Assembly (NCBI GenBank): GCA_021292105.1 | Contig: CM037866.1 | Span: 4,935,502-4,999,501, forward strand | DNA: 64,000 nt | Reading direction: 5' to 3' | Source: Anadara kagoshimensis | Taxonomy: Eukaryota > Mollusca > Bivalvia > Arcoida > Arcidae | In this document: positions 11,191-56,500 of the stretch, in pieces | Position numbering within the stretch: position 1 is the stretch's first letter | Layout: each line of letters opens with the position of its first letter | Program-made: the position numbers and the translations under genes | The notes under the pieces: model-generated | Seen by the model: only the letters and a program-made list of their open reading frames with translations | Told to the model about the DNA's origin: nothing | The model's database searches: none

Positions 11191-12580
11191 CCTGTCGAAA
11201 GTTTAACACTAAGCGGCTAACAAAAAAGAGATGAAGTTCAGATGTTGAATGAACTGTCGAATGCAGCAGAATAGTCTTTCGTCACCTATACCTCTAAACC
11301 TATCAATAGTACTAGTATAGACCTGTCGAAAGTTTAACTATAAGCGGCTAACAAAAAACAGATGAAGTTCAGGTGTTGAATGAACTGTCGAATGCAGCAG
11401 AATAGTCTTTCGTCACATATACCTCTAAACCTATCAACAGTACTAGTACAGACCTGTCGAAAGTTTAACACTAAGCGGCTACAGAAAAACAGATGAAGTT
11501 CAGGTGTTGAATGAACTGTCGAATGCAGCAGAATAGTCTTTCATCACCTATACCTCTAAACCTATCAATAGTACTAGTACAGACCTGTCGAAAGATTAAC
11601 ACTAAGCGGCTAACAAAAAAAAAGTGATGAAGTTCAGATGTTGAATGAATTGTCGAATGCAGCAGAATAGTCTTTCGTCACCTATACCTCTAAACCTATC
11701 AATAGTACTAGTATAGACCTGTCGAAAGTTTAACAATAAGCGGCTAACAAAAAAGAGATGAAGTTCAGGTGTTGAATGAACTGTCGAATGCAGCAGAATA
11801 GTCTTTCGTCACCTATACCTCTAAACCTATCAATAGTACTAGTATAGACCTGTCGAAAGTTTAACAATAAGCGGCTAACAAAAAAGAGATGAAGTTCAGG
11901 TGTTGAATGAACTGTCGAATGCAGCAGAATAGTCTTTCGTCACCTATACCTCTAAACCTACCAATAGTACTAGTATAGACGTGTCGAAAGTTTAACAATA
12001 AGCGGCTAACAAAAAAGAGATGAAGTTCATATGTTGAATGAACTGTCGAATGCAGCAGAATAGTCTTTCGTCACCTATACCTCTAAACCTATCAATAGTA
12101 CTAGTATAGACCTGTCGAAAGTTTAACAATAAGCGGCTAACAAAAAACAGATGAAGTTCAGGTGTTGAATGAACTGTTGAATGCAGCAGAATAGTCTTTC
12201 GTCACCTATACCTCTAAACCTATCAATAGTACTAGTATAGACCTGTCGAAAGTTTAACAATAAGCGGCTAACAAAAAAGAGATGAAGTTCAGATGTTGAA
12301 TGAACTGTCGAATGCAGCAGAATAGTCTTTCGTCACCTATACCTCTAAACCTATCAACAGTCCTAGTACAGACCTGTCGAAAGTTTAACAATAAGCGGCT
12401 AACAAAAAAAGAGATGAAGTTCAGATGTTGAATGAACTGTCGAATGCAGCAGAATAGTCTTTCGTCACCTATACCTCTAAACCTATAACAGTACTAGTAT
12501 AGACCTGTCGAAAGTTTAACACTAAGCGGCTAATAAAAAAGAGATGAAGTTCAGATGTTGAATGACCTGTCGAAACGTTA
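11191..12580 (+). repeat. Array 2: 131-bp tandem repeat, ~11 units
   Basis: CCTGTCGAAAGTTTAAC recurs at 11191, 11322, 11453, 11584, 11718, 11849, 11980, 12111, 12242, 12373 and 12504; the spacing is 131 bp in every case except one of 134. Units are nearly identical and contain 'aagcggctaacaaaaaagag', 'gaactgtcgaatgcagcaga' and 'cctatcaatagtactagta'. A last partial unit at 12566 runs directly into the conserved upstream block of sulfatase copy 1. The array shares only its lead motif with Array 1. Confidence 0.95.
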
Positions 12581-20784: not shown

Positions 20785-22781
20785 TTTTAACGGAGTTCGG
20801 GAGCGTCTTATTGTTATTGTACTGTTTTTATTTTTTCTTCTATATTATTATTATTATTATTATTATTCCTTATTTTTTCTTCCGTAATTTTTTTTGTCCA
20901 TGGACTTTCTCAAAAACGACAAAAGCTACAAACTTGAAACTTTCTATAAATGTGCAGTATCATATGGTTATGGTTGTCATTGTTACAAAAACCGAGAGGT
21001 GATTAGGCGATTTTTTTTTAAATTTTGAATTTTTAACAATAAAACTTGTGTGGATATTAACCCATCAACTATATGTATACGTTTTGACATGACCAATCCA
21101 ACTATGACAAAATATGGGACCTTTGGCCAATTTGGGAAGAATCTCTTTTTTATCATAAGTCATTCCCCTATAACCTATATATTCTTGATTGGCATGAAAC
21201 ATGCAATTCATATATGGCAAAATTTTCGACCCAGGACCATTTTTTTGACCTCATTAATATTTCCTACATTATCAAAATAATTGCTCAAAATCCATATATA
21301 TTCTTGATCACTATGTTATCACATCCTCATATATCACATAGAAGTGGATCCCTCATCTAAAGTAGACCGCACTATTTTTTGGGCCCTATCAAATTCTCCA
21401 ATAAGGCTAATCACCTATTAGCCATATACACGTATATTCTTGAGCAGAATGAAATATGTAATTCATATATGACAAAATTTTGGATATTGATTCTTGATTA
21501 CTATGTAACTCACATCTCATACAAATGCTGACCTAATTTTGTGACAGGACATTTTGTGGATCAAAACGTTTTGTCCATTACTGATAAATAAACAATAAAT
21601 TTTCTTGTGTTATTTGTTTAACAGGATTAAATGTGGTCTTTATGCAGATTCCTGGAGAAAGCAACGATCAAATAGGAATGTGGGTTCCGGAATGGAAAAT
21701 GTTTTTCCCTGGAGACACCTTCTATAATGCTTTTCCGAACTTGTATTCTATCAGGGGAACACCGATGAGGGATCCGAAATTATGGTACTCATCTGTTCAA
21801 AATATAGCGGACTTAAAGCCAGAGTACCTTGTTCTAAGCCACCATTACCCCGTGATAGGAAAGACCAAAATCCAAAAATATCTGACCGAATACCGAGATG
21901 CTATACAGTTTGTCCATGATCAGGCGCTTAGGTACATCAATAAAGGGTACTACCCCGATAAAGTTGTCGAGATGGTCAAACTGCCTAAGAAACTGGCTAA
22001 ACGTCCTTACCTACAACAGTGTTACGGCACCATCGCCTGGTCAGTGAAAGGCGTGTTCCAGCTTTTCCTGGGCTGGTTTAGTGGAGACCCGGCTGAATTG
22101 CTTCCAATGACATATACTGAAAAAGCCAAACGAATGAAAGAACTCGCAGGAGGTGTAAGCGGTCTTGTAAGCAAAGGCAAGGATGCCTTGAAATCCGGAG
22201 ATAATCAGTGGGCGCTGGAACTATCGTCCTACGCTCTAGAATTAAAACCAGATAACAACCAAGCCAGGCAATTAAAATCAGAGGCGTTAGTTGCTCTTGG
22301 CGACGCTACGTCATTTCCGCTTGCGATAAACTATTACAAAACTATGGCGTTGGAAGTAAGCGGAAAAATTGATTTGAGTTTGAGGCCAGAATACATTCAC
22401 CACCTTGTCTATTCCTACCGAATGAGACAGTTGTTCGAGCTCATGCCGGCGATGTACATCGCTGAAAACTGTTCTGATAGGACGGATATCGTTCTATTCA
22501 AATTTCGAGACACTGGATTAGAAGTCTATGTGCAGCTGAGAAATGGCGTCGCAATCATATCCGATTCTAAACCCGAAGAAGATCGTGTTTTTAGTGTAAC
22601 CTTTGCCTCCGAGGATTTGTTCCGAGACCTTGTTGTCATGATGGCGGATGGGACAGGTTGGCCCTTCTCTTTTCTTACGGAAATAAGCTCAAAAGTTAAG
22701 ATAATATCTCCATTTACAATGACCCGTTTCACGGAGATAATGCATTGTTTTGATTGGTACATGAATGTTAAAACAGCTTAA
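14757..22781 (+). CDS. Secreted alkyl-sulfatase-like metallo-hydrolase, copy 1
   Basis: Four coding exons: 14757-14882, 16213-16419, 17854-18091 and 21625-22781, all with GT..AG introns and matching phases (0, 0, 1), total 575 aa. Residues 1-28 are a signal peptide (WFVYFVFYWSAGISPSLA). Residues 43-300 form a metallo-beta-lactamase domain with THYHHDH at 100-106 (zinc ligands H101, H103, D105, H106), an IPGE at 199-202, a PGD at 219-221 and SHH at 262-264. Then come an alkyl-sulfatase dimerisation domain (about 280-440, with NQWALELSSYALE) and an SCP2-like C-terminal domain. The order is that of bacterial SdsA1-type alkyl sulfatases and their animal homologues, which cleave sulfate esters; the substrate here is unknown. 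Bacterial enzymes have Glu where D221 stands. One codon shorter than copy 2 in exon 3 (TFID-PNN). The alternative GTG at 21633 is inside exon 4, not a start. Confidence 0.85.
15081..15288 (+). mobile_element. MITE G (TTGACGNATCGCCGGCC ends), copy 1 intron
   Basis: Inverted ends 'gatcaccgaccacgcccaca' and 'gcatgaccggtgatacgtcaa'-like bracket about 200 bp of non-coding DNA. The cleanest relative, with near-perfect ends, is at 44068-44264. Counterparts lie at 28434-28503 (internally deleted) and 39062-39258. Confidence 0.65.
15565..15578. promoter_or_regulatory. Perfect palindrome GATCTCGCGAGATC
   Basis: The 14-bp palindrome contains TCTCGCGAGA, a word known as a strong CpG promoter element in vertebrates. 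It sits in a GC-richer island (about 15525-15620) inside intron 1. No transcription start is evident, so a role is unproven. Confidence 0.3.
15715..15990 (-). repeat. Repeat A, long copy
   Basis: Reverse-oriented, about 275 bp, from 'catactaatccatggccgaa' (right end) to 'cacagtattgttgataagtt' (left end). It contains 'gctccggaagggtaagcacc' and 'gtttagctagctacacccgc' when read on the minus strand. No coding frame or tRNA-like head is seen. The class is unknown. Confidence 0.7.
16670..16685. other. 16-bp perfect palindrome, intron 2 of copy 1
   Basis: CGGGTATTAATACCCG is perfectly self-complementary, and flanking 'cgattttt'/'aaaatcg' can extend the hairpin with a small bulge. A TGACGTCA lies 29 bp upstream (16641). 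Confidence 0.4.
16862..17750 (+). mobile_element. MITE family C, intron 2 of copy 1, with insertions
   Basis: The left end 'tttgtttcacaatcatttct' and right end 'agttaagaaataattgtaaa' correspond to the inverted ends seen at 13785-14038. The inside has been enlarged by an (ATA)n tract (16896-16948) and a MITE (17502-17636). Copy 2 has the same frame at 29908-30384 without those insertions. Confidence 0.5.
17502..17636 (+). mobile_element. MITE H, 135 bp
   Basis: Inverted arms of about 41 bp: 'taagaaatgacatttctgct' with 'catggtatttt', mirrored by 'taccatgatcaaactgtcat' and 'ttctta'. The paralogous place in copy 2 (about 30236) lacks it, so it inserted after the genes split. The same outer ends occur at 19056 and 19867. 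Confidence 0.65.
18160..18660 (+). repeat. Foldback minisatellite, intron 3 of copy 1
   Basis: A tandem of 'cgccatcgtatcttcgcttc' and 'tttgcgttatt' words covers about 430 bp. A short left arm of the inverse sequence ('gaagatacgttggagaagaa') makes a foldback structure. The same structure sits at the same distance from exon 3 in copies 2 (30797-31000) and 3 (40770-40885) with far fewer units. Long open frames across it are Phe/Ser-rich by-products. Confidence 0.7.
19056..19867 (+). mobile_element. Inverted-repeat element holding a LINE fragment
   Basis: Two 54-bp arms (19056-19109 and 19814-19867) are inverted copies with about three mismatches ('taagaaataacattctattt' opens the left arm). Their outer 15 bp match the MITE at 17502. 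Between them is a minus-strand LINE fragment. A LINE insertion alone gives direct, not inverted, flanks, so either a MITE was invaded or an inverted duplication formed around the insert. Confidence 0.6.
19117..19813 (-). mobile_element. Truncated LINE (non-LTR retrotransposon), 3' part
   Basis: On the minus strand, 19823-19608 reads ...DGNEIKQVDKFTYLGAVVS..., the end of a reverse transcriptase in LINE families ('FTYLG' followed by a K.RLSKAR segment). Further on, 'GHVLRMEGK' and 'RPRARPKPTWRR'-like words appear in shifted frames, typical of the LINE C-terminal end. It finishes in (TAGG)n at 19117-19155, a simple-repeat tail. It is 5'-truncated and frameshifted. The clade is not determined. 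Confidence 0.65.
20088..20400 (+). repeat. SINE-1, head slightly truncated
   Basis: It starts inside the A box ('ttggtagagtgctcg'), has the B box 'gggttcgatcc', the shared body and the tail 'gatataagtgaaatattctt' + 'gggacgttaaacaccatt'. It lies in intron 3 of copy 1. Confidence 0.8.
20410..21620. other. Intron 3 remainder, copy 1
   Basis: (AAT)n at 20746-20784 and (TTA)n at 20845-20867. From about 21060 to 21560 a loose repetition of 'tatattcttgat' and 'catatatg.caaaatttt' phrases indicates an old tandem. The last 90 bp ('acgttttgtccattactgat') are conserved with copy 2 before exon 4. No gene. Confidence 0.4.
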
Positions 22782-31468: not shown

Positions 31469-33731
31469 AACTTCGTATATCTCTAACAAACTCTGACTCC
31501 TATGCGCTTGATTTGTGTCTTGGTCATTGAATGGTAAACTTTATTTTAAATTTTGTTTAGCCCTCACAACAAAAACTGTTTTGCCGCAGAGGTCATAAAA
31601 TGTCAATTAAAATCATATTATAAATATATATATAAATTTCGAATATTTCTCTGAAATGATTTCTGATACATCAGATATGTGATTTTCTGTAACTAAGTAA
31701 CATATTTAGTGGCATATTAATTCAAAAACAGGTTTATATTATATAGAAGGAAAATGAACTTGCTGTTCTTGTCAAACCCTATTTAAAATCCCCTTAACAC
31801 AAAACGATTTTATTGACCGTTTTTGTATTATGTATCAATATCTTCAGAAGCAACTCAAATCAATGTCACAGAAGCCGCGTTGGCCTACGGCGCCAGGTTC
31901 ACTTACCGTTGTGAGTTCAAATCCCGCTCAGATTACATGTGGGAAAGTGATTTTTCCTTGCCGTTGGTCCATCTGGTGTCAGTATAATGTGATTGTGGGA
32001 GTGGTAGTATTGACTCAGTGATGTAGTACCTAAAAGTCGCTCTGAATACGCACTTATACAAGGCAGAGAATAAAACACAAAATATTTATTCTTAATCATT
32101 ATGGAATAGCAAACTCATATTTTACATCAGAGTGGACCCCAGACCTATTTTTGGCAGGGCCATCTTGTTTATCCAAACATTTTGTCCATTACTGATAAAA
32201 ATGAACCAAAAAATTCTTGTTCCAAAGCTAAAAAAGAAATATTCGCTTTCAGTCTTACAAACATATTGATATTCAAATAAAAGGCCAGAAAAATATGAGG
32301 GCGTTCACTTAAAGTTGGGGACCGGGGCAACTTATTTCTGAGGCTGCTTGAAATCTAAAAAAAAAGAAATATTCTCCTTCAGTCTTACAAACATATTGGT
32401 ATTCGAATATAAGGCCATGAAAAATATGAGGGCGTTTACTGAAAGTTTGTGCCTGGGGCAACTTGTTTCCGAGGCTGCTTGCAATCTCAAACGAAGTCTA
32501 ATTATTATTATTACTTTATTACTTTACATCATCATTATTATTATTATTATAATATGTGTAATTTGTTTTAACAGGATTAAATGTGGTCTTTATGCAGATT
32601 CCTGGAGAAAGCAACGATCAAATAGGAATATGGGTCCCGAAATGGAAAATGTTTTTCCCTGGGGACACCTTCTATAATGCTTTTCCGAACTTGTATTCCA
32701 TCAGGGGAACACCGATGAGGGATCCAAAATTATGGTACTCATCTGTTCAAAAAATAGCGGACCTAAAACCAAAGTACCTTGTTCTAAGCCATCATTATCC
32801 AGTAGAAGGAAAGGCTAGAATCCAGGAATATCTTACCAATTACCGAGATGCTATACAGTTTGTCCATGATCAGGCGCTAAGGTACATCAATAAAGGATAC
32901 CACCCCGATAAAGTAGTTGAGATGGTCAAACTACCTAAGAAACTCGCTAAACGTCCTTACCTACAGCAGTGTTACGGCACCGTCGCCTGGTCAGTGAAAG
33001 GCGTTTTCCAGCTTTTCCTGGGCTGGTTTAGCGGAGACCCGGCTGATTTGCTTCCAATGACATATACTGAAAAAGCCAAACGAATGGAGGAACTCGCAGG
33101 AGGTGTTAAAGGTCTTGTAAACAAAGCTAGGGATGCCTTGAGATCCGGCCATAATCAGTGGGCGCTCGAATTATCGTCCTACGCTCTAGAATTAAAACCA
33201 GATTACAACCAAGCCAGACAATTAAAATCGGAGGCTTTAGTTGCTCTTGGCGACGCTACGTCATTTACGCTTGCGGTAAACTATTACAAAACAAGTGCTT
33301 TGGAAGTAAGCGGAAACATTGATCTGAGAGTCGAACCAGAAATGGTCCATGACTTTATCTATTCCTTCCGAATGAGGCAGTTGTTCGAGCTGATGCCGAC
33401 GATGTACATCGCTGAAAACTGTTCTGATAGGACGGATATCGTTCTATTCAAATTTCGAGACACAGGATTAAAAGTCTATATGCAGCTGAGAAATGGCGTC
33501 GCAATCATATCAGATTCTCGGCCGGAAGGAGATGACGTTTTTAATATAATCTTTGCTAACGAGGATTTGTTCCGAGACCTTGTGGTCGACATGATGGATG
33601 GGACAGGTTGGCCATTTCCTTTTCTTTGGAAAATACTCTCAAAAATTGAGATACCATCTCCATTTACAATAACCCGTTTCTATGAGATAATGCATTGTTT
33701 TGATTGGTACATGAATGTTAAAACCGCATAA
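27437..33731 (+). CDS. Secreted alkyl-sulfatase-like metallo-hydrolase, copy 2
   Basis: Exons 27437-27562, 28652-28858, 30495-30735 and 32575-33731 (phases 0, 0, 1) encode 576 aa with no break. The N-terminus MAVFIKKTWFVYFVFYWSTG is a signal peptide. The zinc motif THYHHDH, IPGESNDQIG, the FFPGD and SHHYPV segments, the dimerisation domain and the SCP2-like end are all present. This suggests a secreted zinc sulfate-ester hydrolase working as a dimer; the substrate is not known. Exon 4 is closest to copy 3 (both have VNYYKTSALEVSG and RVEPEMVHDF), but exon 3 is the outlier of the three (INLLDSLENFQ, VIRMTRALRQVGNNV), which points to gene conversion. Intact promoter, first exon and poly(A) signal make it the best functional candidate of the cluster. 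Confidence 0.87.
27566..27800 (+). repeat. Repeat A in intron 1 of copy 2
   Basis: It starts 'catactaatccacgtccgaa' a few bases after the exon 1 donor and ends near 'ataaacaatactgtg'. It is inverse to the copy in intron 1 of copy 1, so the two insertions are independent. Confidence 0.7.
28047..28190 (+). mobile_element. Short CCTGTCGAAAGTTTAAC-type element
   Basis: About 145 bp from 'acagacctgttgaaaattta' to the inverse 'gtgttaaactttcgaccggt', the minimal form of the elements in intron 1 of copies 1 and 3. Confidence 0.6.
28274..28545 (+). mobile_element. Second CCTGTCGAAAGTTTAAC-type element with MITE G remnant
   Basis: It starts 'acagaccggtcaaaaaatta' and ends 'agcttagtgttaacagtcta' + 'caggtct'. 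At 28434-28503 it holds an internally deleted MITE G (ends 'ggatcgcaagccacgcc' and 'gaccagcgatacgtcaa'). Confidence 0.6.
29084..29859 (+). mobile_element. hAT-type MITE with 8-bp target duplication
   Basis: It starts TAGTGATGGGAATCGG and ends, inverse, CCGATTAATCG... with CCAACACTA at the edge. GGTGGTAT is present on both sides (29076-29083 and 29860-29867), the 8-bp duplication expected of hAT. The ends are rich in AATCGAT. A SINE is nested at 29371-29712, so the element alone is about 420 bp. Intron 2 of copy 1 shows the corresponding empty site near 16825. Confidence 0.8.
29371..29712 (+). repeat. SINE-1, full length with target duplication
   Basis: tRNA-like head with A box 'tagctcagttggtagag' and B box 'gagttcgagcc', body 'gacccaagacttgaaagtgg', tail 'gactgggacgttaaacacca' and (ACTCA)n. 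TCATACTTATT flanks it on both sides (29360-29370, 29713-29723). It inserted into the hAT MITE. This is the reference copy for the family here. Confidence 0.9.
29908..30384 (+). mobile_element. MITE family C, intron 2 of copy 2
   Basis: Left end 'gcttgtttcacaatcatccc', right end 'gttaagaaataattgtaaaa' + 'ccggggcc', inverted as at 13785-14038. It has been invaded by Repeat A (29955-30168). Confidence 0.6.
29955..30168 (+). repeat. Repeat A nested in MITE C
   Basis: 'catactaattcatgtccgaa' to about 'caatcctgtgatgac'; contains 'gctccggaagggtaagcacc'. Confidence 0.7.
30797..31000 (+). repeat. Foldback minisatellite, intron 3 of copy 2
   Basis: The left arm ('gaagatacgatggcgaagaa') and the right arm ('tcgccatcgtatctttgctc') are inverted. 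It is much shorter than in copy 1 and lies at the same distance (about 60 bp) from exon 3. Confidence 0.7.
31197..31596 (+). mobile_element. MITE D, about 400 bp
   Basis: Inverted ends: 'tttgcggcaaaacagttttt' on the left and its inverse 'aaaaactgttttgccgcaga' on the right. (AAAT)n at 31410-31468 lies inside. Not seen in intron 3 of copies 1 or 3. Confidence 0.65.
31868..32076 (+). repeat. SINE-2, intron 3 of copy 2
   Basis: The tRNA-like head ('ccgcgttggcctacgg' ... 'gagttcaaatcccgc') and the body 'acatgtgggaaagtgatttt', 'gtcagtataatgtgattgtg' match SINE copies at 40991 and 63757. The 5' flank ('tcaatatcttcagaagcaac') is shared with copy 3, so insertion preceded that duplication. Confidence 0.75.
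32215..32490 (+). repeat. Twofold ~130-bp tandem duplication
   Basis: 'tcagtcttacaaacatattg', 'aaatatgagggcgtt' and 'tgaggctgcttg' each occur twice, about 130 bp apart, just before exon 4 of copy 2. A (TTA)n tract follows (about 32503-32550). Confidence 0.8.
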
Positions 33732-36357: not shown

Positions 36358-36735
36358 GGCAAACAGCATTGACCTGTCCATTTGACCTTTCATTGGATAT
36401 GTTCATAATGGAAATTTCACCACTGGGTAATATTATAATTTAATTAATTTACAGTTAAAACATGAACAGTGTTTGTATCTAAAACAACTACGTTCCCTAT
36501 TTACAGTCAAACCTGTCTATAAAGGCCACGCAAGACAACCAGTCAAAATGAACATTATATACAGGTTTCTTTGAATACAGGTTCAAATAATATGAATAAA
36601 GAACAATTGAGATACAACTCTACTTGCTTTTATAAGCAAGTGGCCCTTATATAGAGGTGGGATTAAGGCAGGTTGGACTGTATAAATAGATTCATTTTGA
36701 ATAAATATTAAAACGAAAGGTCAATGTTGTTTGCC
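36358..36735 (+). mobile_element. Inverted pair enclosing MITE F
   Basis: GGCAAACAGCATTGACCT (36358-36375) faces AGGTCAATGTTGTTTGCC (36718-36735), 17 of 18 bases complementary. MITE F (36502-36682) lies between them, so it may have inserted into an older inverted-repeat element. Confidence 0.45.
36502..36682 (+). mobile_element. MITE F, copy 1
   Basis: Inverted ends 'tacagtcaaacctgtctata' and 'ggcaggttggactgta', flanked by TA. The interior 'acaggttcaaataatatgaa' and 'tggcccttatatagaggtgg' matches the second copy at 43602-43784 in inverse orientation. Confidence 0.75.
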
Positions 36736-36794
36736 CATTCGTTTGGTATAGAACTGAAATGAACATCTCGAGAAAACAGAATTAACCTTTACTT

Positions 36795-36965
36795 GCGATT
36801 AAGTATTTCCTTAGCCTTATTTTGTAAAATATATTTTTCAACGTTTCATAATTTTGTTCAAGCACTACTGATGAGGAATTGTATTCCGAAACGGCCGTCT
36901 AGTGCTGTAAATATAAAACTGGTATAATATGTAATTGTAAAACTCAACAGGTTGGGACCGTTAGT
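36795..36965 (+). mobile_element. Hammerhead-bearing retroelement unit (retrozyme-like)
   Basis: The segment 'agtatttccttagccttatt' through the ribozyme to 'ctggtataatatgtaattgt' is shared with 38467-38645 in inverse orientation, which defines a mobile unit of about 170 bp. The size and single ribozyme fit animal retrozymes or a Penelope-element end. No tandem neighbour was found. Confidence 0.6.
36861..36906 (+). ncRNA. Type I hammerhead ribozyme
   Basis: All catalytic parts are present in order. Stem I is closed by AGCACTA (36861-36867) and TAGTGCT (36900-36906), seven perfect pairs, with a further TT/AA pairing across a small internal loop. The core CTGATGA is at 36868-36874. Stem II is GGAAT/ATTCC (36875-36879 with 36883-36887) with a TGT loop. 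GAAA is at 36888-36891. Stem III is very short (A-T and C-G pairs, 36891-36892 with 36997-36998 minus 100, that is 36897-36898). Cleavage would follow GTC, between 36899 and 36900. Minimal stem III is known from hammerheads of Penelope-like retroelements and animal retrozymes, which often act as dimers. No reverse transcriptase lies nearby, so this is a non-autonomous unit. Activity is not shown. Confidence 0.8.
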
Positions 36966-36969
36966 CTTA

Positions 36970-37370
36970 TTTTTACTTATCTTGTGTGAAACTCAACTGT
37001 TTTTCCTAGTAGCTTTGGGGCGTTAGTAGTACTTTTAATTATCTTGCAATCTTAATTGCCAACTCAAATTGTATTTGTAGCAGAAATTTACTTTTTCTTA
37101 AGTGCTAATGGAAACACGTTGAATTTTATGACTAGACTATATATTGTCATATTGAGATTTGTAACTAACACTTTATTATAAAACGCAGGTAAATACAGGT
37201 ACGTACATATAGTTTTTTTACACAAGTAAGGTAAATAAGTGTGGAATAGACAGGTTGTATATTACACGAACGGTATGACAGTTTCATTAATTTTCATCGA
37301 GCAACGTGGGTATACAATTACAGTTTAGATCAGACGAAAATTTAAAACAAAGCTAAGCGAATAAGCGGCG
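36970..37370. other. No recognisable feature
   Basis: AT-rich DNA between the ribozyme unit and the upstream remnant of copy 3. Confidence 0.4.
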
Positions 37371-37374
37371 AACC

Positions 37375-37475
37375 GGCAACTCATTTCGCCCCTCGGCGGC
37401 TTTATCTTGACATCATTGTGTTGACTATCTTTAGGGCATCTTTTTCGGCCAGTAGCATTCCAAAATTAAATATAG
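37375..37475 (+). promoter_or_regulatory. Decayed promoter block of copy 3
   Basis: 'catttcgcccctcggcggct' + 'ttatctt' and 'catctttttcggccagtagc' line up with the conserved upstream block of copies 1 and 2. The downstream TATA box and the first exon are missing; a transposon fragment starts here instead. Confidence 0.45.
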
Positions 37476-37479
37476 GGGT

Positions 37480-38245
37480 CCCCTCTTTACGGTGTAAGCT
37501 ATTATTTAACATTTTTTTGGAATCTTAACATAGGCTGAGTAGGAAATCAGGCTCTGGAGAATTGGAAAAAAAGTAGAAAAATAATAATTTGTCCTACATG
37601 TTATTAAAACCTAAATAATGTAGACGGGATGGCTCACTTTTAATCTTAAATGGTCATCGTGCTGTAAACTAAGGTGTTGTGCTTCTTGCTGTTATAATAA
37701 AACATGTTTATAAATTATGTAAAAAATACTTTTTAAATTATATTGTTTTGTATTCCTAATCACTTGAATTATAGAAATAATGATATTAAGAAACACTATT
37801 ACTACGAATTAGAGAAAAACAAAGTCTTATCCGAAATAAAAGTCAATGATGGCACTTCAAAAATGCAAGAAAACGGGCCAGTCAGAGTCAGGGGTATAAT
37901 GTCAATGGCTACATAAAAAGTGATAGAACTAATTAGATAAAATCTTGACAAGAGTGAAAAAAATCATTATAATTTATAAAATTTAACTTGGCAAGATATG
38001 GAGACTGAAAATCACCGAGGTCAAAATACTCCACTCAGAAGTTCCACACGTAATTAAATTAACAACAATTTTCAATTAAAAAATTTTCCTGACGTTATTG
38101 CATATATATTTTAAAAGGCACAATGTTATTCAAAAGCTGACAGAATTTTGAAAAAAAATCAATTATGTAAAAAAAAACCGATTGAAATCAATTGAAATTA
38201 TAAAAGGCAATTCATTAGTGAATCATTGGTATCTGATTAATTTAT
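37480..38245 (-). mobile_element. TTAA-type transposon fragment (copy 3)
   Basis: 'gccagtcagagtca', 'ggcaattcattagtgaatca' and neighbouring words match the interior of 34198-35570 in the same orientation. The inverted ends were not found. It replaces the promoter and 5'UTR exon of sulfatase copy 3. Confidence 0.6.
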
Positions 38246-38466
38246 TCGTGTACGTATTTATGATGCTTTTCATTTGTCCTAGTAATTTGATCTTTTTTGT
38301 TTTATATTTCAGTATTTTACAGGGATGTGGTAATAATGGCGGTATTAATTAAGATCACGTGGTTTGTTTACTTTGTTTTTTATTGGTCCGCCGAGATCAG
38401 TCCTTCATTGGGTGCTGATGAAGCTAAATGTCCAAAGGGGTGGCCAAAAAAAATTCAAAAGGTACT

Positions 38467-38645
38467 AATTACACATTATGCCAGTTTTAATTTTACAGCA
38501 CTAGACGGCCGTTTCAGAATACAATTCCTCATAAGTAGTGCTTGGACCACAAAATTATAAAACAAAATTATTTTGAATATGTTGAAAAGCTACCCAAAGG
38601 ACCAAAATATATTTTACCAAATTAAGCTAAGGAAATACTTTGCAT
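38467..38645 (-). mobile_element. Hammerhead-bearing unit, copy 2, degenerate
   Basis: It is the inverse of 36795-36965 and begins about 5 bp after the exon 1 donor of sulfatase copy 3. The ribozyme part (38497-38542) keeps stem I (TAGTGCT/AGCACTA), GAAA and the GTC site. The core reads CTTATGA instead of CTGATGA, and the first pair of stem II is a G-T wobble. The core G is essential in known hammerheads, so this copy should not cleave. Confidence 0.65.
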
Positions 38646-38934
38646 GATGGAGTATACCTTAGTTTTTGAAAAATTTCAAATTTTAACTTGCAATACATTT
38701 AGACATTATAGTATATTTCTGACAATAATACGAAATTATTGTCTACTGAGTTTGTAAAATCCTCGGGAAACGTAAACCTGATATCCATATCCAATGGGAA
38801 TAATTGCCTTACACAAACTTTAGGGGGTAGATATTTCACATGGTACAGTGGGAAAAACCTTTTAATGTCACAAACATTGCAACTCCGTAAGTAGACTTAA
38901 TGAATAGCTATATATGTAGGCCCAAATAGTACAT

Positions 38935-43002: not shown

Positions 43003-43270
43003 TACCAATACGGTGGCTCAGTGGTAGAGTGCTCGCTCCGTATGTGGGAGGTCGTGGGTACGAACCCCAACCGCGTCTGACGCAAGACTTGAAAGATGAC
43101 AGTGAGCATTCTTCCACCAATCACTCGGCATAACATGTTTGGCACGATTAAGAAGAGCCTTGCTGTACAATGCTATCAGCGCAACGCACATGTAACATTT
43201 CTACACCTTTGCCTATAGCTGTAAAGTCTTGATATAAATGACATATATTGACTTGGACATTAACACAATC
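43003..43270 (+). repeat. SINE-1, diverged
   Basis: A box 'ggtggctcagtggtagag', body 'cgcaagacttgaaag', a shortened middle, and tail 'tgatataaatgacatatatt' + 'gacttggacatta'. Confidence 0.75.
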
Positions 43271-43545: not shown

Positions 43546-43601
43546 AATTTTGGCAATGTTTTATAATATTTTAAAAATAAGGTGTCTACAAAATTAGAAT
43601 A

Positions 43602-43784
43602 TACAGTCCAACCTGTCTTAAAGACCATCTCTATATAAGGGACACCTGCTTATAAAGAACAGTAGGATTGTATCCCAAATCTTCTTTATTCGTGTGGTTT
43701 GAACCTGTATATAAAGGCCACCTATCCATAAAGGCCACTATTACTTGTTCCCTTGGATGGTCATTATATACAGGTTTGACTGTA
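43602..43784 (-). mobile_element. MITE F, copy 2
   Basis: Ends 'tacagtccaacctgtcttaa' and 'tatacaggtttgactgta', flanked by TA; inverse relative to the copy at 36502-36682 with the interior conserved. Confidence 0.75.
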
Positions 43785-44557: not shown

Positions 44558-47500
44558 ACTTGTTTTAATTTAGCAACATTAGACTTGTTTTAATTTAGCG
44601 ACATTAGACTTGTTTTAATTTAGCAACATTAGACTTGTTTTAATTTAGCAACATTAGACTTGTTTTAATTTAGCGACATTAGCCTTGCTTTAATTTAGCA
44701 ACATTAGCCTTGTTTTAATTTAGCAACATTAGACTTGTTTTAATTTAGCAACATTAGACTTGTTTTAATTTAGCATCATTAGACTTGTTTTAATTTAGCA
44801 ACATTAGACTTGTTTTAATTTAGCAACATTAGACTGTTTTAATTTAGCATCATTAGCTTGCTTTATTTAGCAACATTAGCCTTGTTTTAATTTAGCAACA
44901 TTAGACTTGTTTTAATTTAGCAACATTAGACTTGTTTTAATTTAGCAACATTAGCCTTGTTTTAATTTAGCAACATTAGACTTGTTTTAATTTAGCATCA
45001 TTAGACTTGTTTTAATTTAGCAACATTAGACTTGTTTTAATTTAGCAACATTAGACTTGTTTTAATTTAGCATCATTAGACTTGTTTTAATTTAGCAACA
45101 TTAGCCTTGTTTTAATTTAGCATCATTAGCCTTGCTTTAATTTAGCAACATTAGACTTGTTTTAATTTAGCATCATTAGCCTTGCTTTAATTTAGCAACA
45201 TTAGCCTTGTTTTAATTTAGCGACATTAGACTTGTTTTAATTTAGCAACATTAGACTTGTTTTAATTTAGCAACATTAGACTTGTTTTAATTTAGCAACA
45301 TTAGACTTGTTTTAATTTAGCATCATTAGCCTTGTTTTAATTTAGCATCATTAGCCTTGCTTTAATTTAGCAACATTAGACTTGTTTTAATTTAGCATTA
45401 TTAGCCTTGTTTTAATTTAGCAACATTAGACTTGTTTTAATTTAGCAACATTAGACTGTTTTAATTTAGCAACATTAGACTTGTTTTAATTTAGCAACAT
45501 TAGACTTGTTTTAATTTAGCAACATTAGACTTGTTTTAATTTAGCAACATTAGACTTGTTTTAATTTAGCAACATTAGACTTGTTTTAATTTAGCATCAT
45601 TAACCTTGTTTTAATTTAGCATCATTAGCCTTGCTTTAATTTAGCAACATTAGACTTGTTTTAATTTAGCGACATTAGACTTGTTTTAATTTAGCAACAT
45701 TAGACTTGTTTTAATTTAGCAACATTAGACTTGTTTTAATTTAGCATCATTAGACTTGTTTTAATTTAGCATCATTAGCCTTGCTTTAATTTAGCAACAT
45801 TAGACTTGTTTTAATTTAGCGACATTAGACTTGTGTTAATTTAGCAACATTAGACTTGTTTTAATTTAGCATCATTAGCCTTGTTTTAATTTATCGACAT
45901 GAGCCTTGTTTTAATTTAGCAACATTAGCCTTGTTTTAATTTAGCAACATTAGCCTTGTTTTAATTTAGCATCATTAGCCTTGTTTTAATTTATCGACAT
46001 TAGCCTTGTTTTAATTTAGCAACATTAGACTTGTTTTAATTTAGCATCATTAGCCTTGTTTTAATTTAGCAACATTAGACTTGTTTTAATTTAGCAATAT
46101 TAGACTTGTTTTAATTTAGCAACATTAGACTTGTTTTAATTCAGCATCATTAGACTTGTTTTAATTTAGCAACATTAGCCTTGTTTTAATTTAGCAACAT
46201 TACACTTGTTTTAATTTAGCAAAATTAGACTTGTTTTAATTTAGCAACATTAGACTTGTTTTAATTTAGCGACATTAGACTTGTTTTAATTTAGCGACAT
46301 TAGACTTGTTTTAATTTAGCAACATTAGACTTGTTTTAATTCAGCAACATTAGACTTGTTTTGATTTAGCAACATTAGCCTTGTTTTAATTTAGCAACAT
46401 TACACTTGTTTTAATTCAGCAACATTAGCCTTGTTTTAATTCAGCAACATTACACTTGTTTTAATTTAGCGACATTAGACTTGTTTTAATTTAGCAACAT
46501 TAGACTTGTTTTAATTCAGCAACATTACACTTGTTTTAATTCAGCATCATTAGACTTGTTTTAATTTAGCAACATTAGCCTTGTTTTAATTTAGCGACAT
46601 TAGCCTTGTTTTAATTTGCGACATTAGCCTTGTTTAATTAGCGACATTAGACTTGTTTTAATTTAGCGACATTAGACTTGTTTTAATTTAGCATCATTAG
46701 CCTTGTTTTAATTTAGCGACATTAGACTTGTTTTAATTTAGCAACATTAGACTTGTTTTAATTTAGCAACATTAGCCTTGTTTTAATTTAGCAACATTAG
46801 CCTTGTTTTAATTTAGCAACATTAGCCATGTTTTAATTTAGCGACATTAGACTTGTTTTAATTTAGCAACATTACACTTGTTTTAATTTAGCAACATTAC
46901 ACTTGTTTTAATTTAGCAACATTAGACTTGTTTTAATTTAGCAACATTACACTTGTTTTAATTCAGCAACATTAGCCTTGCTTTAATTCAGCAACATTAG
47001 CCTTGTTTTAATTTAGCAACATTACACTTGTTTTAATTTAGCAACATTACACTTGTTTTAATTCAGCAACATTAGCCTTGCTTTAATTCAGCAACATTAG
47101 CCATGTTTTAATTTAGCAACATTAGAATTGTTTTAATTTAGCAACATTAGCCTTGTTTTAATTTAGCAACATTAGCCTTGCTTTAATTCAGCAACATTAG
47201 CCTTGTTTTAATTTAGCAACATTACACTTGTTTTAATTCAGCAACATTAGCCTTGTTTTAATTCAGCATCATTAGACTTGTTTTAATTTAGCATCATTAG
47301 CCTTGTTTTAATTTAGCATCATTAGACTTGTTTTAATTTAGCAACATTACACTTGTTTTAATTTAGCGACATTAGACTTGTTTTAATTCAGCATCATTAG
47401 ACTTGTTTTAATTCAGCAACAGTAGACTTGTTTTAATTTAGCAACATTAGACTTGTTTTAATTCAGCAACATTAGCCTTGTTTTAATTTATCGACATTAG

Positions 47501-50500
47501 CCTTGTTTTAATTTAGCAACATTACACTTGTTTTAATTCAGCAACATTAGCCTTGTTTTAATTCAGCAACATTAGCCTTGCTTTAATTCAGCAACATTAG
47601 CCTTGTTTTAATTTAGCAACATTAGACTTGTTTTAATTCAGCATCATTAGACTTGTTTTAATTTAGCAACATTAGCCTTGTTTTAATTTAGCAACATTAC
47701 ACTTGTTTTAATTTAGCAACATTAGACTTGTTTTAATTCAGCATCATTAGACTTGTTTTAATTCAGCAACATTAGACTTGTTTTAATTTAGCAACATTAC
47801 ACTTGTTTTAATTTAGCAACATTAGACTTGTTTTAATTTAGCAACATTAGCCTTGTTTTAATTTAGCAACATTACACTTGTTTTAATTTAGCAACATTAG
47901 ACTTGTTTTAATTTAGCAACATTACACTTGTTTTAATTTAGCAACATTAGCCTTGTTTTAATTTAGCAACATTAGCCTTGTTTTAATTTAGCGACATTAG
48001 ACTTGTTTTAATTTAGCAACATTAGCCTTGTTTTAATTCAGCAACATTAGCCTTGTTTTAATTCAGCAACATTACACTTGTTTTAATTTAGCGACATTAG
48101 ACTTGTTTTAATTTAGCAACATTAGACTTGTTTTAATTCAGCAACATTACACTTGTTTTAATTCAGCATCATTAGACTTGTTTTAATTTAGCAACATTAG
48201 ACTTGTTTTAATTTAGCGACATTAGACTTGTTTTAATTTAGCGACATTAGACTTGTTTTAATACAGCAACATTACACTTGTTTTAATTTAGCGACATTAG
48301 ACTTGTTTTAATTTAGCAACATTAGACTTGTTTTAATTCAGCAACATTACACTTGTTTTAATTCAGCATCATTAGACTTGTTTTAATTTAGCAACATTAG
48401 CCTTGTTTTAATTTAGCGACATTAGCCTTGTTTTAATTTTGCGACATTAGCCTTGTTTTAATTTAGCGACATTAGACTTGTTTTAATTTAGCGACATTAG
48501 ACTTGTTTTAATTTAGCAACATTAGCCTTGTTTTAATTTAGCGACATTAGACTTGTTTTAATTTAGCAACATTAGACTTGTTTTAATTTAGCGACATTAG
48601 ACTTGTTTTAATTTAGCAACATTAGACTTGTTTTAATTCAGCAACATTACACTTGTTTTAATTCAGCATCATTACACTTGTTTGAATTTAGCACATTAGA
48701 CTTGTTTTAATTTAGCAACATTAGACTTGTTTTAATTAGCAACATTAGACTTGTTTTAATTCAGCAACATTACACTTGTTTTAATTCAGCACTCATTACA
48801 CTTGTTTGAATTTAGCAACATTAGACTTGTTTTAATTTAGCAACATTAGACTTGTTTTAATTTAGCGACATTAGACTTGTTTTAATTAAGCACATTAGAC
48901 TTGTTTTAATTTAGCGACATTAGACTTGTTTTAATTAAGCAACATTAGACTTGTTTTAATTCAGCAACATTACACTTGTTTTAATTCAGCATCATTAGAC
49001 GTGTTTTAATTTAGACATTAGACTTGTTTTAATTTAGCAACATTAGACTTGTTTAATTTAGCGACATTAGACTTGTTTTAATTTAGCAACATTAGACTTG
49101 TTTTAATTTAGCGACATTAGACTTGTTTTAATTTAGCGACATTAGCCTTGTTTTAATTTAGCGACATTAGCCTTGTTTTAATTAGCATCATTAGCCTTGT
49201 TTTAATTTAGCACATTACACTTGTTTTATTTTTAGAGCATTGTTTTAATTCAGCATCATTAGACTTTTTAATTTAGCGACATTAGCCTTGTTTTAATTTA
49301 GCATCATTAGCCTTGTTTTAATTTAGCAACATTAGACTTGTTTTAATTTAGCAACATTAGCCTTGTTTTAATTTAGCAACATTAGCCTTGTTTTAATTTA
49401 GCGACATTAGCCTTGTTTTAATTTAGCAACATTAGCCTTGTTTTAATTTAGCAACATTAGCCTTGTTTTAATTTAGCAACATTAGCCTTGTTTTAATTTA
49501 GCAAATACATTGTTTTAATTTAGCATCATTAGCCTGTTTTAATTTAGCAACATTAGCCTTGTTTTAATTAGCAACATTAGCCTTGTTTAATTTAGCAACA
49601 TTACACTTGTTTTAATTTAGCAACATTAGACTTGTTTTAATTTAGCACATTACACTTGTTTTAATTTAGCAACATTAGCCTTGTTTTAATTTAGCAACAT
49701 TAGCCTTGTTTTAATTTAGCAACATTAGATTTGTTTTAATTTAGCATCATTAGACTTGTTTTAATTTAGCAACATTAGCCTTGTTTTAATTTAGCAACAT
49801 TAGACTTGTTTTAATTTAGCAACATTAGACTTGTTTTAATTTAGCATCATTAGACTTGTTTTAATTTAGCAACATTAGACTTGTTTTTAATTTAGCAACA
49901 TTAGCCTTGTTTTAATTAGCGACATTAGACTTGTTTTAATTTAGCGACATTAGACTTGTTTTAATTTAGCAACATTAGACTTGTTTTAATTTAGCAACAT
50001 AGCCTTGTTTTAATTTAGCGACTTAGCCTTGTTTTAATTTAGCGACATTAGACTTGTTTTAATTTAGCAACATTAGCCTTGTTTTAATTTAGCAACATTA
50101 GCCTTGTTTTAATTTAGCAACATTAGCCTTGTTTTAATTTAGCAACATTAGCCTTGTTTTAATTTAGCAACATTAGCCTTGTTTTAATTTAGCGACATTA
50201 GCCTTGTTTTAATTTAGCAACATTAGACTTGTTTTAATTTAGCAACATTACACTTGTTTTAATTTAGCAACATTAGACTTGTTTTAATTTAGCAACATTA
50301 GACTTGTTTTAATTTAGCAACATTAGCCTTGTTTTAATTTAGCAACATTAGCCTTGTTTTAATTTAGCAACATTAGAATTGTTTTAATTTAGCAACATTA
50401 GACTTGTTTTAATTTAGCGACATTAGCCTTGTTTTAATTTAGCAACATTAGCCTTGTTTTAATTTAGCAACATTACACTTGTTTTAATTTATCGACATTA

Positions 50501-53500
50501 GCCTTGTTTTAATTTAGCAACATTAGACTTGTTTTAATTTAGCGACATTAGCCTTGTTTTAATTTAGCAACATTAGACTTGTTTTAATTTAGCAACATTA
50601 CACTTGTTTTAATTTATCGACATTAGCATTGTTTTAATTTAGCAACATTAGCCTTGTTTTAATTTAGCAACATTAGCCTTCTTTTAATTTAGCAACATTA
50701 CACTTGTTTTAATTTAGCAACATTAGACTTGTTTTAATATATCGACATTAGCCTTGTTTTAATTTAGCAACATTACACTTGTTTTAATTTAGCAACATTA
50801 GACTTGTTTTAATTTAGCAACATTCTTGTTTTAATTTAGCAACATTAGCACTTGTTTTAATTTAGCAACATTACACTTGTTTTAATTTAGCAACATAGCC
50901 TTGTTTTAATTCAGCAACATTACACTTTTTTTTTTAGCAACATTAGACTTGTTTTAATTTAGCAACATTAGACTTGTTTTAATTTAGCAACATTACACTT
51001 GTTTTAATTTAGCAACATTAGCCTTGTTTTAATTTAGCAACATTAGACTTGTTTAATTAGCAACATTAGACTTGTTTTAATTAGCAACATTAGACTTGTT
51101 TTAATTTAGCAACATTAACTTGTTTTAATTTAGCAACATTGAGCTTGTTTTAATTTAGCAACATTAGCCTTGTTTTAATTTAGCAACATTAGCCTTGTTT
51201 TAATTTAGCAACATTAGACTTGTTTTAATTTAGCAACATTAGACTTGTTTAATTTAGCAACATTAGACTTGTTTTAATTTAGCAACATTAGACTTGTTTT
51301 AATTTAGCAACATTAGACTTGTTTTAATTTAGCAACATTAGACTGTTTTAATTTAGCAACATTACACTTGTTTTAATTTAGCAACATTAGCCTTGCTTTA
51401 ATTTAGCATCATTAGATTTGTTTTAATTTAGCAACATTAGACTTGTTTTAATTTAGCAACATTAGACTTGTTTTAATTTAGCATCATTAGCCTTGTTTTA
51501 ATTTAGCAACATTAGCCTTGTTTTAATTTAGCAACATTACACTTGTTTTAATTTAGCAACATTAGCCTTGTTTTAATTTATCGACATTAGCCTTGTTTTA
51601 ATTTAGCAACATTACACTTGTTTTAATTTAGCAACATTAGCCTTGTTTTAATTTAGCAACATTAGACTTGTTTTAATTTAGCATCATTAGCCTTGTTTTA
51701 ATTTAGCAACATTAGACTTGTTTTAATTTAGCAACATTAGACTTGTTTTAATTTAGCATCATTAGCCTTGTTTTAATTTAGCAACATTAGACTTGTTTTA
51801 ATTTAGCAACATTAGCCTTGTTTTAATTTAGCAACATTAGACTTGTTTTAATTTAGCGACATTAGCCTTGTTTTAATTTAGCAACATTAGCCTTGTTTTA
51901 ATTTAGCAACATTAGCCTTGTTTTTAATTTAGCAACATTAGACTTGTTTTAATTTAGCGACATTAGACTTGTTTAATTTAGCAACATTAGCTTGTTTTAA
52001 TTAGCAACATTAGACTTGTTTTTTTAGCAACATTAGCCTTGTTTTAATTTAGCAACATTAGCCTTGTTTTAATTTAGCAACATTAGACTTGTTTTAATTT
52101 AGCAACATTAGCCTTGTTTTTAATTTAGCAACATTAGACTTGTTTTAATTTAGCATCATTAGCCTTGCTTTAATTAGCAACATTAGACTTGTTTTAATTA
52201 GCAACATTAGACTTGTTTTTAATTTAGCAACATTAGCCTTGTTTTAATTTAGCAACATTAGACTTGTTTTAATTTAGCATCATTAGCCTTGCTTTAATTT
52301 AGCAACATTAGCCTTGTTTTAATTTAGCACATTAGACTTGTTTAATTTAGCAACATAGACTTGTTTTAATTTAGCAACATTAGACTTGTTTAATTTAGCA
52401 CATTACACTTGTTTTAATTTAGCAACATTACACTTGTTTTAATTTAGCAACATTACTTGTTTAATTTAGCAACATTAGCCTTGTTTTAATTTAGCATCAT
52501 TAGCCTTGTTTTAATTAGCAACATTAGACTTGTTTTAATTTAGCAACATTAGCCTTGTTTTAATTAGCAACATTAGCCTTGTTTTAATTTAGCATCATTA
52601 GCCTTGTTTTAATTTAGCAACATTACACTTGTTTTAATTTAGCAACATTAGCCTTGTTTTAATTTAGCAACATTAGACTTGTTTTAATTTAGCAACATTA
52701 GACTTGTTTTAATTTAGCAACATTACACTGTTTTTAATTTAGCAAACATTAGCCTTGTTTTAATTTAGCAACATTAGACTTGTTTAATTTAGCAACATTA
52801 GCCTTGTTTTAATTTAGCAACATTAGCCTTGTTTTAATTTAGCAACATTAGACTTGTTTTAATTTAGCAACATTACACTTGTTTTAATTTAGCAACATTA
52901 GCCTTGTTTTAATTTAGCAACATTACACTTGTTTTAATTTAGCAACATTAGCCTTGTTTTAATTTAGCAACATTAGCCTTGTTTTAATTTAGCAACATTA
53001 GCCTTGTTTTAATTTAGCAACATTAGCCTTGTTTTAATTTAGCAACATTAGCCTTGTTTTAATTTAGCAACATTAGCCTTGTTTTAATTAGCAACATTAG
53101 CCTTGTTTTAATTTAGCAACATTAGCCTTGTTTTAATTTAGCACATTAGCCTTGTTTTAATTTAGCAACATTAGCCTTGTTTTAATTTAGCAACATTAGC
53201 CTTGTTTAATTTAGCGAACATTAGACTTGTTTTAATTTAGCAACATTACACTTGTTTTAATTTAGCAACATTAGCCTTGTTTTAATTTAGCAACATTACA
53301 CTGTTTTAATTTAGCAACATAGACTTGTTTTAATTTAGCAACATTAGCCTTGTTTTAATTTAGCAACATTAGACTTGTTTTAATTTAGCAACATTAGCCT
53401 TGTTTTAATTTAGCAACATACACTTGTTTTATTTAGCAACATTAGCCTGTTTTAATTTAGCAACATTACACTTGTTTTAATTTAGCAACATTAGCCTTGT

Positions 53501-56500
53501 TTTAATTTAGCAACATTACACTTGTTTTAATTTAGCAACATTAGACTTGTTTTAATTTAGCAACATTAGCCTGTTTTAATTTAGCAACATTAGACTTGTT
53601 TTAATTTAGCAACATTAGACTTGTTTTAATTTAGCAACATTAGACTGTGTTTTAATTTAGCAACATTAGACTTGTTTAATTTAGCAACATTAAGCCTTGT
53701 TTTAATTTAGCAACATTAGACTTGTTTTAATTTAGCAACATTAGAATAGTTTTAATTTAGCAACATTAGAATTGTTTTAATTTAGCAACATTAGACTTGT
53801 TTTAATTTAGCGACATTAGCCTTGCTTTAATTTAGCAACATTAGACTTGTTTTAATTTAGCAACATTAGACTTGTTTTAATTTAGCAACATTAGACTTGT
53901 TTTAATTTAGCAACATTAGACTTGTTTAATTTGAGCACATTAGACTTGTTTTAATTTAGCAACATAAGCCTTGTTTTAATTTAGCAACATTAGCCTTGTT
54001 TTAATTTAGCATCATTAGACTTGTTTTAATTTAGCATCATTAGACTTGTTTTAATTTAGCAACATTAGACTTGTTTTAATTTAGCACATTAGACTTGTTT
54101 TAATTAGCAACATTAGCCTTGTTTTAATTTAGCAACATTAGACTTGTTTTAATTTAGGCAACATTAGACTTGTTTTTAATTTAGCAACATTAGACTTGTT
54201 TTAATTAGCAACATAAGCCTTGTTTTAATTTAGCAACATTAGACTGTTTTTAATTTAGAACATTACACTTGTTTTAATTTAGCAACATTAGCCTTGTTTT
54301 AATTTAGCATCATTAGCCTTGTTTTAATTTAGCAACATTAGACTTGTTTTAATTTAGCAACATTAGACTTGTTTTAATTTAGCAACATTAGCCTTGTTTT
54401 AATTTAGCAACATTACACTTGTTTTAATTTTCGACATTAGCCTTGTTTAATTTAGCAACATTAGACTTGTTTTAATTTAGCGACATTACACTTGTTTTAA
54501 TTTACGACATTAGCCTTGTTTTAATTTAGCAACATTAGACTTGTTTTAATTTAGCAACATTACACTTGTTTTAATTTAGCAACATTAGCCTTGTTTTAAT
54601 TTAGCATTATAGCCTTGTTTTAATTAGCAACATTAGCCTTGTTTTAATTTAGCAACATTAGCTTGTTTTAATTTAGCAACATTAGACTTGTTTTAATTTA
54701 GCAACCTTAGCCTTGTTTTAATTTAGCAACATTAGACTTGTTTAATTTAGCATCATTAGCCTTGCTTTAATTTAGCAACATTAGACTTGTTTTAATTTAG
54801 CAACATTAGACTTGTTTTAATTTAGCAACATTAGCCTTGTTTTAATTTAGCAACATTAGACTTGTTTTAATTTAGCATCATTAGCCTTGCTTTAATTTAG
54901 CAACATTAGCCTTGTTTTAATTTAGCAACATTAGACTTGTTTTAATTTAGCAACATTACACTTGTTTTAATTTAGCAACATTAGACTTGTTTTAATTTAG
55001 CAACATTACACTTGTTTTAATTTAGCAACATTACACTTGTTTTAATTTAGCAACATTACACTTGTTTTAATTTAGCAACATTAGCCTTGTTTTAATTTAG
55101 CATCATTAGCCTTGTTTTAATTTAGCAACATTAGACTTGTTTTAATTTAGCAACATTAGCCTTGTTTTAATTTAGCAACATTACACTTGTTTTAATTTAG
55201 CAACATTAGCCTTGTTTTAATTTAGCAACATTACACTTGTTTTAATTTAGCAACATTAGACTTGTTTTAATTTAGCAACATTAGCCTTGTTTTAATTTAG
55301 CAACATTAGACTTGTTTTAATTTAGCAACATTAGCCTTGTTTTAATTTAGCAACATTACACTTGTTTTAATTTAGCAACATTAGCCTTGTTTTAATTTAG
55401 CAACATTACACTTGTTTTAATTTAGCAACATTAGCCTTGTTTTAATTTAGCAACATTACACTTGTTTTAATTTAGCAACATTAGACTTGTTTTAATTTAG
55501 CAACATTAGCCTTGTTTTAATTTAGCAACATTAGACTTGTTTTAATTTAGCAACATTAGACTTGTTTTAATTTAGCAACATTAGACTTGTTTTAATTTAG
55601 CAACATTAGACTTGTTTTAATTTAGCAACATTAGCCTTGTTTTAATTTAGCAACATTAGACTTGTTTTAATTTAGCAACATTAGAATAGTTTTAATTTAG
55701 CAACATTAGAATTGTTTTAATTTAGCAACATTAGACTTGTTTTAATTTAGCGACATTAGCCTTGCTTTAATTTAGCAACATTAGACTTGTTTTAATTTAG
55801 CAACATTAGACTTGTTTTAATTTAGCAACATTAGACTTGTTTTAATTTAGCAACATTAGACTTGTTTTAATTGAGCAACATTAGACTTGTTTTAATTTAG
55901 CAACATAAGCCTTGTTTTAATTTAGCAACATTAGCCTTGTTTTAATTTAGCATCATTAGACTTGTTTTAATTTAGCATCATTAGACTTGTTTTAATTTAG
56001 CAACATTAGACTTGTTTTAATTTAGCAACATTAGACTTGTTTTAATTTAGCAACATTAGCCTTGTTTTAATTTAGCAACATTAGACTTGTTTTAATTTAG
56101 CAACATTAGACTTGTTTTAATTTAGCAACATTAGACTTGTTTTAATTTAGCAACATAAGCCTTGTTTTAATTTAGCAACATTAGACTTGTTTTAATTTAG
56201 CAACATTACACTTGTTTTAATTTAGCAACATTAGCCTTGTTTTAATTTAGCATCATTAGCCTTGTTTTAATTTAGCAACATTAGACTTGTTTTAATTTAG
56301 CAACATTAGACTTGTTTTTTATTAGCAACATTAGCCTTGTTTTAATTTAGCAACATTACACTTGTTTTAATTTATCGACATTAGCCTTGTTTTAATTTAG
56401 CAACATTAGACTTGTTTTAATTTAGCGACATTAGCCTTGTTTTAATTTAGCAACATTAGACTTGTTTTAATTTAGCAACATTAGACTTGTTTTAATTTAG

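Follow-up and report, generated by a model that had tools for sequence, protein, structure and literature searches.

A probable metazoan non-LTR retrozyme with a type I hammerhead ribozyme in the genome of the bivalve Anadara kagoshimensis

The repeat and its two copies in the window

The window, that is, the whole stretch of 64,000 nucleotides analysed here (Anadara kagoshimensis, assembly GCA_021292105.1, contig CM037866.1, positions 4,935,502 to 4,999,501 of the forward strand), carries two copies of a short repeat in opposite orientations, one of which contains a type I hammerhead motif (Table 1). Both were delimited by BLAST comparison of the window with a reference unit of 339 nt from the genomic locus L026. 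An earlier reading, made from the letters alone and referred to below as the sequence-only reading, had given the first unit as 36795-36965, bounds that are corrected in Table 1. Copy 1 is without the first 166 unit positions, its two matching pieces (36801-36837 and 36843-36936) corresponding to unit positions 167-203 and 245-339, and it has an intact ribozyme and no adjoining second unit. The inverse recurrence reported by the same reading does exist, as a second copy on the minus strand, but it extends well past the proposed 38467-38645, and copy 2 is probably catalytically dead, its core being mutated to CTTATGA.

The unit has a G+C content of 34%, within the range below 50% that is typical of metazoan non-LTR retrozymes, and it is non-coding in the window: the element is overlapped by no open frame of at least 150 aa, as the sequence-only reading also stated for a polymerase gene. 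The reading frame for reverse transcriptase (RT) and GIY-YIG, by which Penelope-like elements are recognized, is likewise missing from it. A short repeat at 36601-36684 and 43600-43684 (81% identical, opposite orientation) ends just upstream of copy 1 and is unrelated to the retrozyme.

Table 1. Positions of the probable retrozyme copies and of their parts in the window
Feature	Position	Strand	Basis
Copy 1, 5'-truncated, ~41 inner unit positions missing	36801..36936	+	BLAST of 339-nt unit from L026
Type I hammerhead, intact core, predicted cut after 36899	36861..36906	+	sequence; motif count in shuffles; 4311 core-pattern matches in genome
Stem I, 7 bp	36861-36867 paired with 36900-36906	+	read from sequence
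Core CTGATGA	36868-36874	+	read from sequence
Stem II, GGAAT-TGT-ATTCC, 5 bp, loop TGT	36875-36887	+	
GAAA	36888-36891	+	read from sequence
CGGCC	36892-36896	+	read from sequence
GTC	36897-36899	+	read from sequence
Stem III, 2 pairs, loop GGCC	A36891-U36898, C36892-G36897	+	
Stem III segment ACGGCCGT, perfect palindrome; predicted 8-bp helix between two hammerheads	36891..36898	+	unconstrained two-strand fold
37-nt tail, cut site to common 3' end of copies (...ATGTAATT)	36900..36936	+	
Copy 2, 301 bp, unit positions 39-339, 92% identical	38467..38767	-	BLAST of L026 unit
Copy 2 hammerhead, core CTTATGA at 38529-38535, probably inactive	38498..38541	-	

The hammerhead motif

All the invariant hammerhead positions named by the sequence-only reading, namely CTGATGA, GAAA, GTC, a 7-bp stem I and a 5-bp stem II with a TGT loop, are readable in copy 1, and its statement that stem III has only two to three pairs agrees with a count of two. 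The features by which type I is defined, including the core CUGANGA, GAAA, a UH cleavage site and three stems with the motif open at stem I, are present. Searched exactly, the pattern of core and spacing matches the window once, at 36868; a second match, with a single mismatch, is in the inverse copy. When two mismatches are allowed, 10 are found against 14.05 expected, which is no commoner than chance, and the case for the hammerhead therefore rests on its stems and copies. A search of the window with a relaxed structural motif, composed of CTGANGA, a stem II of 3 bp or longer, GAAA, UH and a stem I of 5 bp or longer, gave a single match. Two matches were obtained in 100 dinucleotide shuffles, which were made from window bases 1-44555, covered both strands and excluded the 25-bp satellite at 44558-63605. 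Folded by itself, the 46-mer has only a modest advantage over its shuffles (z -1.63, 16 of 200 folding as well), and its best fold is not the hammerhead.

An Rfam type I match had been anticipated by the sequence-only reading, which counted its absence among the refuting outcomes, but no hammerhead match was obtained with Rfam 15 either at gathering over the whole window or at E<=10 on 36500-38900, both runs being made without a positive control. The Rfam hammerhead models expect a longer stem III. As thousands of copies keep the core, the failure is attributed to the models, and a covariance-model match is no defining feature of the hammerhead ribozyme itself; an intact animal hammerhead can escape an Rfam scan. 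The silence of Rfam is what would favour reading the window motif as a chance resemblance. Against such a resemblance stand the two relaxed-motif matches in 100 shuffles and the genome-wide count of the core pattern (core, TGT loop and GGCCGTC), which has 2212 + 2099 = 4311 matches whereas its reverse has 0. A chance origin is hardly conceivable. At the level of sequence, the hammerhead is confirmed as real.

A palindromic stem III and predicted pairing of two copies

The segment from A15.1 to U16.1 is the palindrome ACGGCCGU, through which a double hammerhead of two copies is predicted to form. Exactly this structure is returned by the unconstrained fold of two strands, at a predicted -31.3 kcal/mol, while the predicted minimum fold of the monomer (-10.7) is another structure and the monomer hammerhead is placed at -6.2, all of these energies disregarding loop-loop contacts. 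In axolotl, hammerheads with a short stem III have been reported to cleave best as dimers (PMC7229834). However, those of mussel and other invertebrates, which have two pairs and a tetraloop as in the window, cut alone according to the same source, and for this reason dimer action of the window hammerhead is a prediction, not a necessity.

Copies and arrays across the genome

The genome searched is an assembly of 1.115 Gb in 36 contigs, of which C1-C19, 38-76 Mb each, make up ~1110 Mb together; a set of nineteen chromosomes would be in keeping with a bivalve, and the Wnt genes present mark the genome as that of an animal. BLAST of 36795-36965 against it gave at least 60 matches, with 40 of 2313 candidates scored. 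The suggestion that the unit is mobile is supported by dispersed copies, which lie at places on many contigs and many of which are single. Tandem units, a search for which had been recommended, are also present: in the fetched loci, head-to-tail arrays at ~339-nt spacing hold up to five hammerheads each, and the junction between two units is found 546 + 539 = 1085 times genome-wide, compared with 0 for the reversed junction. The 339-nt unit is thereby a short tandem repeat with a type I hammerhead in the size range of retrozymes (150-450 bp). Units are more alike within an array (median identity 98.8%, 12 pairs, which are not independent as 6 of the 12 come from one array) than between arrays (94.2%, 241 pairs), and one old array has a unit identity of 66%. 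The hammerhead letters were found 0 times in viral contigs and 0 times in bacterial and archaeal genomes.

A fixed 3' end and scattered 5' starts

Three samples of copies were used to locate the ends of the element. The first consists of arrays ranked by similarity to the window, with L041 left out because its flanks are identical to those of L040. The tail stands at the end of the match in 34 of 37 arrays and is absent in 3, and for the 34 no departure of the 5' starts from a uniform spread along the unit was seen (KS p=0.67). The presence of flank in the query biases this sample. The second takes the loci L045-L074 in map order along contig C1, with 7 of 29 rows dropped because they were duplicates or ran off the end of the locus. 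There, the end is no more than 12 nt away from the fixed point in 21 of 22 arrays, and the start in one of the 22, the 5' starts again being not different from uniform (p=0.11); one copy that was dropped along with its duplicate stops 18 nt before that point. For the third, 40 of 70 listed core-match places, all on C1 and some duplicating each other, were read to 110 nt past the cut. In position order, departure from the unit comes 35-42 nt beyond the cut in 37 of these 40; one continues into another unit, and two, representing one duplicated copy, leave at 12 nt. This footprint is what would be expected of reverse transcription from one fixed start on a circular or multimeric template, with variable stops.

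The ends also bear on the view of the arrays as an ordinary satellite in which the hammerhead is incidental and which spreads by unequal crossing-over and copying at the DNA level. Tandem arrays do exist, and satellite DNA is where newt hammerheads were originally described (PMC6155905), but many copies here are scattered singly, and one fixed 3' end combined with variable 5' ends is not produced by crossing-over. We consider a satellite origin very improbable.

Insertion sites

In metazoan non-LTR retrozymes, target duplications exceed 4 bp where they occur. No target duplication signal stands out for the retrozyme copies in the junctions compared. A first junction test found none. In a shuffle test, the mean longest match was 6.3 vs 5.0 in shuffles, with 1 of 500 as high, a result driven by the array L052, whose insertion sits in a minisatellite with a ~32-bp unit. 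Across 56 arrays, two exceed the 99th percentile against 0.56 expected, one being L052 and the other having its match away from the junctions, and no duplication of LINE size was found among the 56. The nested insertion L053 can be read as having a target duplication of up to 5 bp, TTTGC.

An apparent preference for NTAA after the 3' end was considered and dropped. The pattern looked like homology between primer and template, but 29 nt of flank, with GTAAAAC at its beginning, had been part of the BLAST query, and the preference is not seen in position-ordered junctions. These have an A+T excess at place 2 only and T at places 1-2, which may belong to the element.

Penelope-like elements of the genome

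A GIY-YIG search of the genome gave at least 50 matches, with 150 of 248 candidates scored, and 11 of the 50 places were read (L075-L085). Matches to both RT and GIY-YIG were obtained in the three long loci, although the RT match of L075 is below the Pfam cut-off. In five loci (L076, L077, L078, L081 and L085), CTGAAGA and GAAA lie between stem I strands, L081 being without a paired stem II and L085 having two stem I mismatches; L075 and L083 have one core place changed, the hammerhead of L079 is degenerate, and no convincing motif was found in L080, L082 and L084. The stem III segment is palindromic in four of the five intact hammerheads. In L075, L077, L078, L081 and L083, five of the eight loci with a traceable motif, a (TA)n run begins 36-60 nt beyond the cut, compared with 81-101 nt in L076, L079 and L085; that these copies end at (TA)n was judged by eye on few sequences. 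Rfam gave only below-threshold matches on L075-L077, none of them a hammerhead. As a joint MAFFT alignment of the hammerheads misplaces the cores, pairs were checked by script.

These loci allow the retrozyme to be set against the possibility that a Penelope-like element left the window copy behind, as a fragment or as a solo repeat, with the ribozyme of that element. The Penelope-like elements read in this genome do carry minimal type I hammerheads, but with a core and stems unlike those of the window motif. Between the retrozyme and the 11 of 50 loci read, no match to the unit, no other shared sequence and no shared 3' tail was found beyond a diverged retrozyme copy adjoining L076 and a weak 24-nt match in L082. 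A Penelope-like fragment is accordingly extremely improbable. The sequence-only reading had offered retrozymes or the ribozyme of Penelope-like elements, of which the former has held, given a 339-nt non-coding unit, arrays, 34% G+C and thousands of copies, and the latter has not, the hammerheads in the Penelope-like loci read being shorter and having the core CTGAAGA.

Several further features of these loci were recorded. Downstream of the GIY-YIG frame, L080 and L084 contain DNA that by eye is C2H2 zinc finger-like, and perhaps represent another Penelope-like lineage. The copies in L076 and L077 have adjoining inverted pieces, 97.9-99.4% identical. In L075, direct repeats of ~800 bp (1077-1835 and 3758-4564, 79.5% identical) lie on both sides of the Penelope-like frame and may be either pseudo-LTRs or flanking repeats.

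A proposed cycle and the enzyme behind it

The window copy is very probably a metazoan non-LTR retrozyme with a type I hammerhead, for which the following cycle is proposed, with a Penelope-like element as the likeliest source of the enzyme. Arrays of the 339-nt unit would be transcribed as multimers, which the hammerheads would cut to monomers, either singly or in the predicted pairs through the palindromic stem III. A host RNA ligase may then close the circles, as suggested by PMC7229834. Reverse transcriptase supplied in trans would start at the fixed inner point ~37 nt past the cut to which the footprints point, and would cover the unit partly, once or several times, with variable stops, on either a circle or a linear multimer. 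The cDNA would finally be inserted with little or no target duplication. The elements form a new family of an already known kind, and priority is not claimed.

The enzyme that moves animal retrozymes is left open in the available part of PMC7229834, where LINEs and Penelope-like elements are named. In Anolis, a Penelope-like protein has been shown to start reverse transcription inside the RNA, at +111 to +118 of the reading frame, with the hammerhead cut at +26, and the genomic ends of the element fall on these start sites (PMC11167929). The protein uses uncut RNA in vitro, and retrozymes go unmentioned in that paper. The 3' ends of retrozyme copies likewise fall on one inner site downstream of the hammerhead, and this fixed end, taken together with the inner start in Anolis, lends circumstantial support to a Penelope-like enzyme. 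The distances differ, at ~85-92 nt past the cut in Anolis (by subtraction) vs ~37 nt in the retrozyme. Against such an enzyme, no tail shared with the Penelope-like loci read was found, and the flanks differ: a (TA)n run is found at 1 of 43 retrozyme junctions, whereas Penelope-like copies end in such runs, and a head-to-head inverted piece, an arrangement that is common in Penelope and described for it (PMC3846280), abuts the 5' end in 1 of 54 retrozyme arrays, besides the nested L053. The inverted copies and (TA)n flanks of the local Penelope-like elements are thus not traits of the retrozyme.

LINE copies, too, are variably truncated at the 5' end and share a fixed 3' end. The same retrozyme might instead be moved by a LINE-type reverse transcriptase that recognizes the 3' terminal sequence or the transcript end. 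LINEs are among the candidates named in PMC7229834, repeats with 15-bp, LINE-like target duplications have been reported from Nematostella (PMC4918200), and the flanks of retrozyme and Penelope-like copies differ as described above. Yet the fixed end is internal to a unit that is repeated, at 37 nt beyond the cut, and transcripts can extend past it, as the arrays do; moreover, no target duplication of LINE size was found among the 56 arrays. A LINE-type enzyme appears somewhat unlikely.

We tentatively propose, at somewhat less than even confidence, that animal retrozymes are parasites of Penelope-like elements, reverse transcription by the Penelope-like enzyme starting ~37 nt past the cut on a ribozyme-made circle and running for one or more rounds. 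If true, such parasitism would explain the fixed 3' ends, the scattered 5' ends and the array-specific units, as well as the presence of hammerheads in both classes of element. The family, with its thousands of copies, its scattered 5' ends and a 3' end that is sharp and lies shortly beyond the cut, makes the question of the enzyme directly testable.

Comparison with known systems

The closest likeness by description, rather than by sequence, is to the retrozymes of Mytilus galloprovincialis, which also have a type I hammerhead, low G+C and a non-coding tandem unit (350-390 bp vs 339 here) in a genome with ~5000 motifs, vs 4311 core-pattern matches here, and with Penelope-like elements (PMC7229834). 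Neither the palindrome in the stem III loop nor a 3' end fixed at ~37 nt beyond the cut, both seen here, is described for the mussel in the available part of that source. The repeats of newt and axolotl resemble the window family in their 330-350-bp unit, short stem III and palindromic loop, and their hammerheads cut best as dimers (PMC7229834, PMC6155905), but the window hammerhead has two stem III pairs, a state likened in PMC7229834 to that of invertebrate hammerheads able to cut alone.

Penelope-like hammerheads share with that of the window the type I order (PMC6155905, PMC7761336; L075-L085), the palindromic stem III in most of the intact ones and an end shortly past the cut, and differ from it in their CTGAAGA core, other stems, an adjoining RT/GIY-YIG frame and copies that run into (TA)n. 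Plant LTR retrozymes are also non-autonomous retroelements with hammerheads, but these are of type III and lie in LTRs, with a primer binding site and 4-bp duplications (PMC4918200, PMC7761336), whereas the window family has type I, no LTR structure seen and no 4-bp duplication signal. No description of a fixed inner 3' end of animal retrozymes was found in literature searches on retrozymes or in the available parts of PMC7229834, PMC7761336 and PMC4918200.

Other features of the window

Apart from the element, the window contains a 19-kb satellite array (44558-63605) with a 25-bp unit in ~768 copies and 91% matches, and two further tandem arrays at 6929-8981 and 11184-12574, with units of ~131-137 bp and multiples thereof, to which the stretch GACCTGTCGAAAGTTTAACA is common. 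A tRNA-like Rfam match at 43007-43078 (29.7 vs a cut-off of 29 bits) is perhaps the head of a SINE; ARAGORN, which found no tRNA, does not call it. Two open frames of 382 aa with an alkyl sulfatase dimerisation domain, at 21633-22781 and 32583-33731, lie 11 kb apart and are probably exons of a tandemly duplicated gene.
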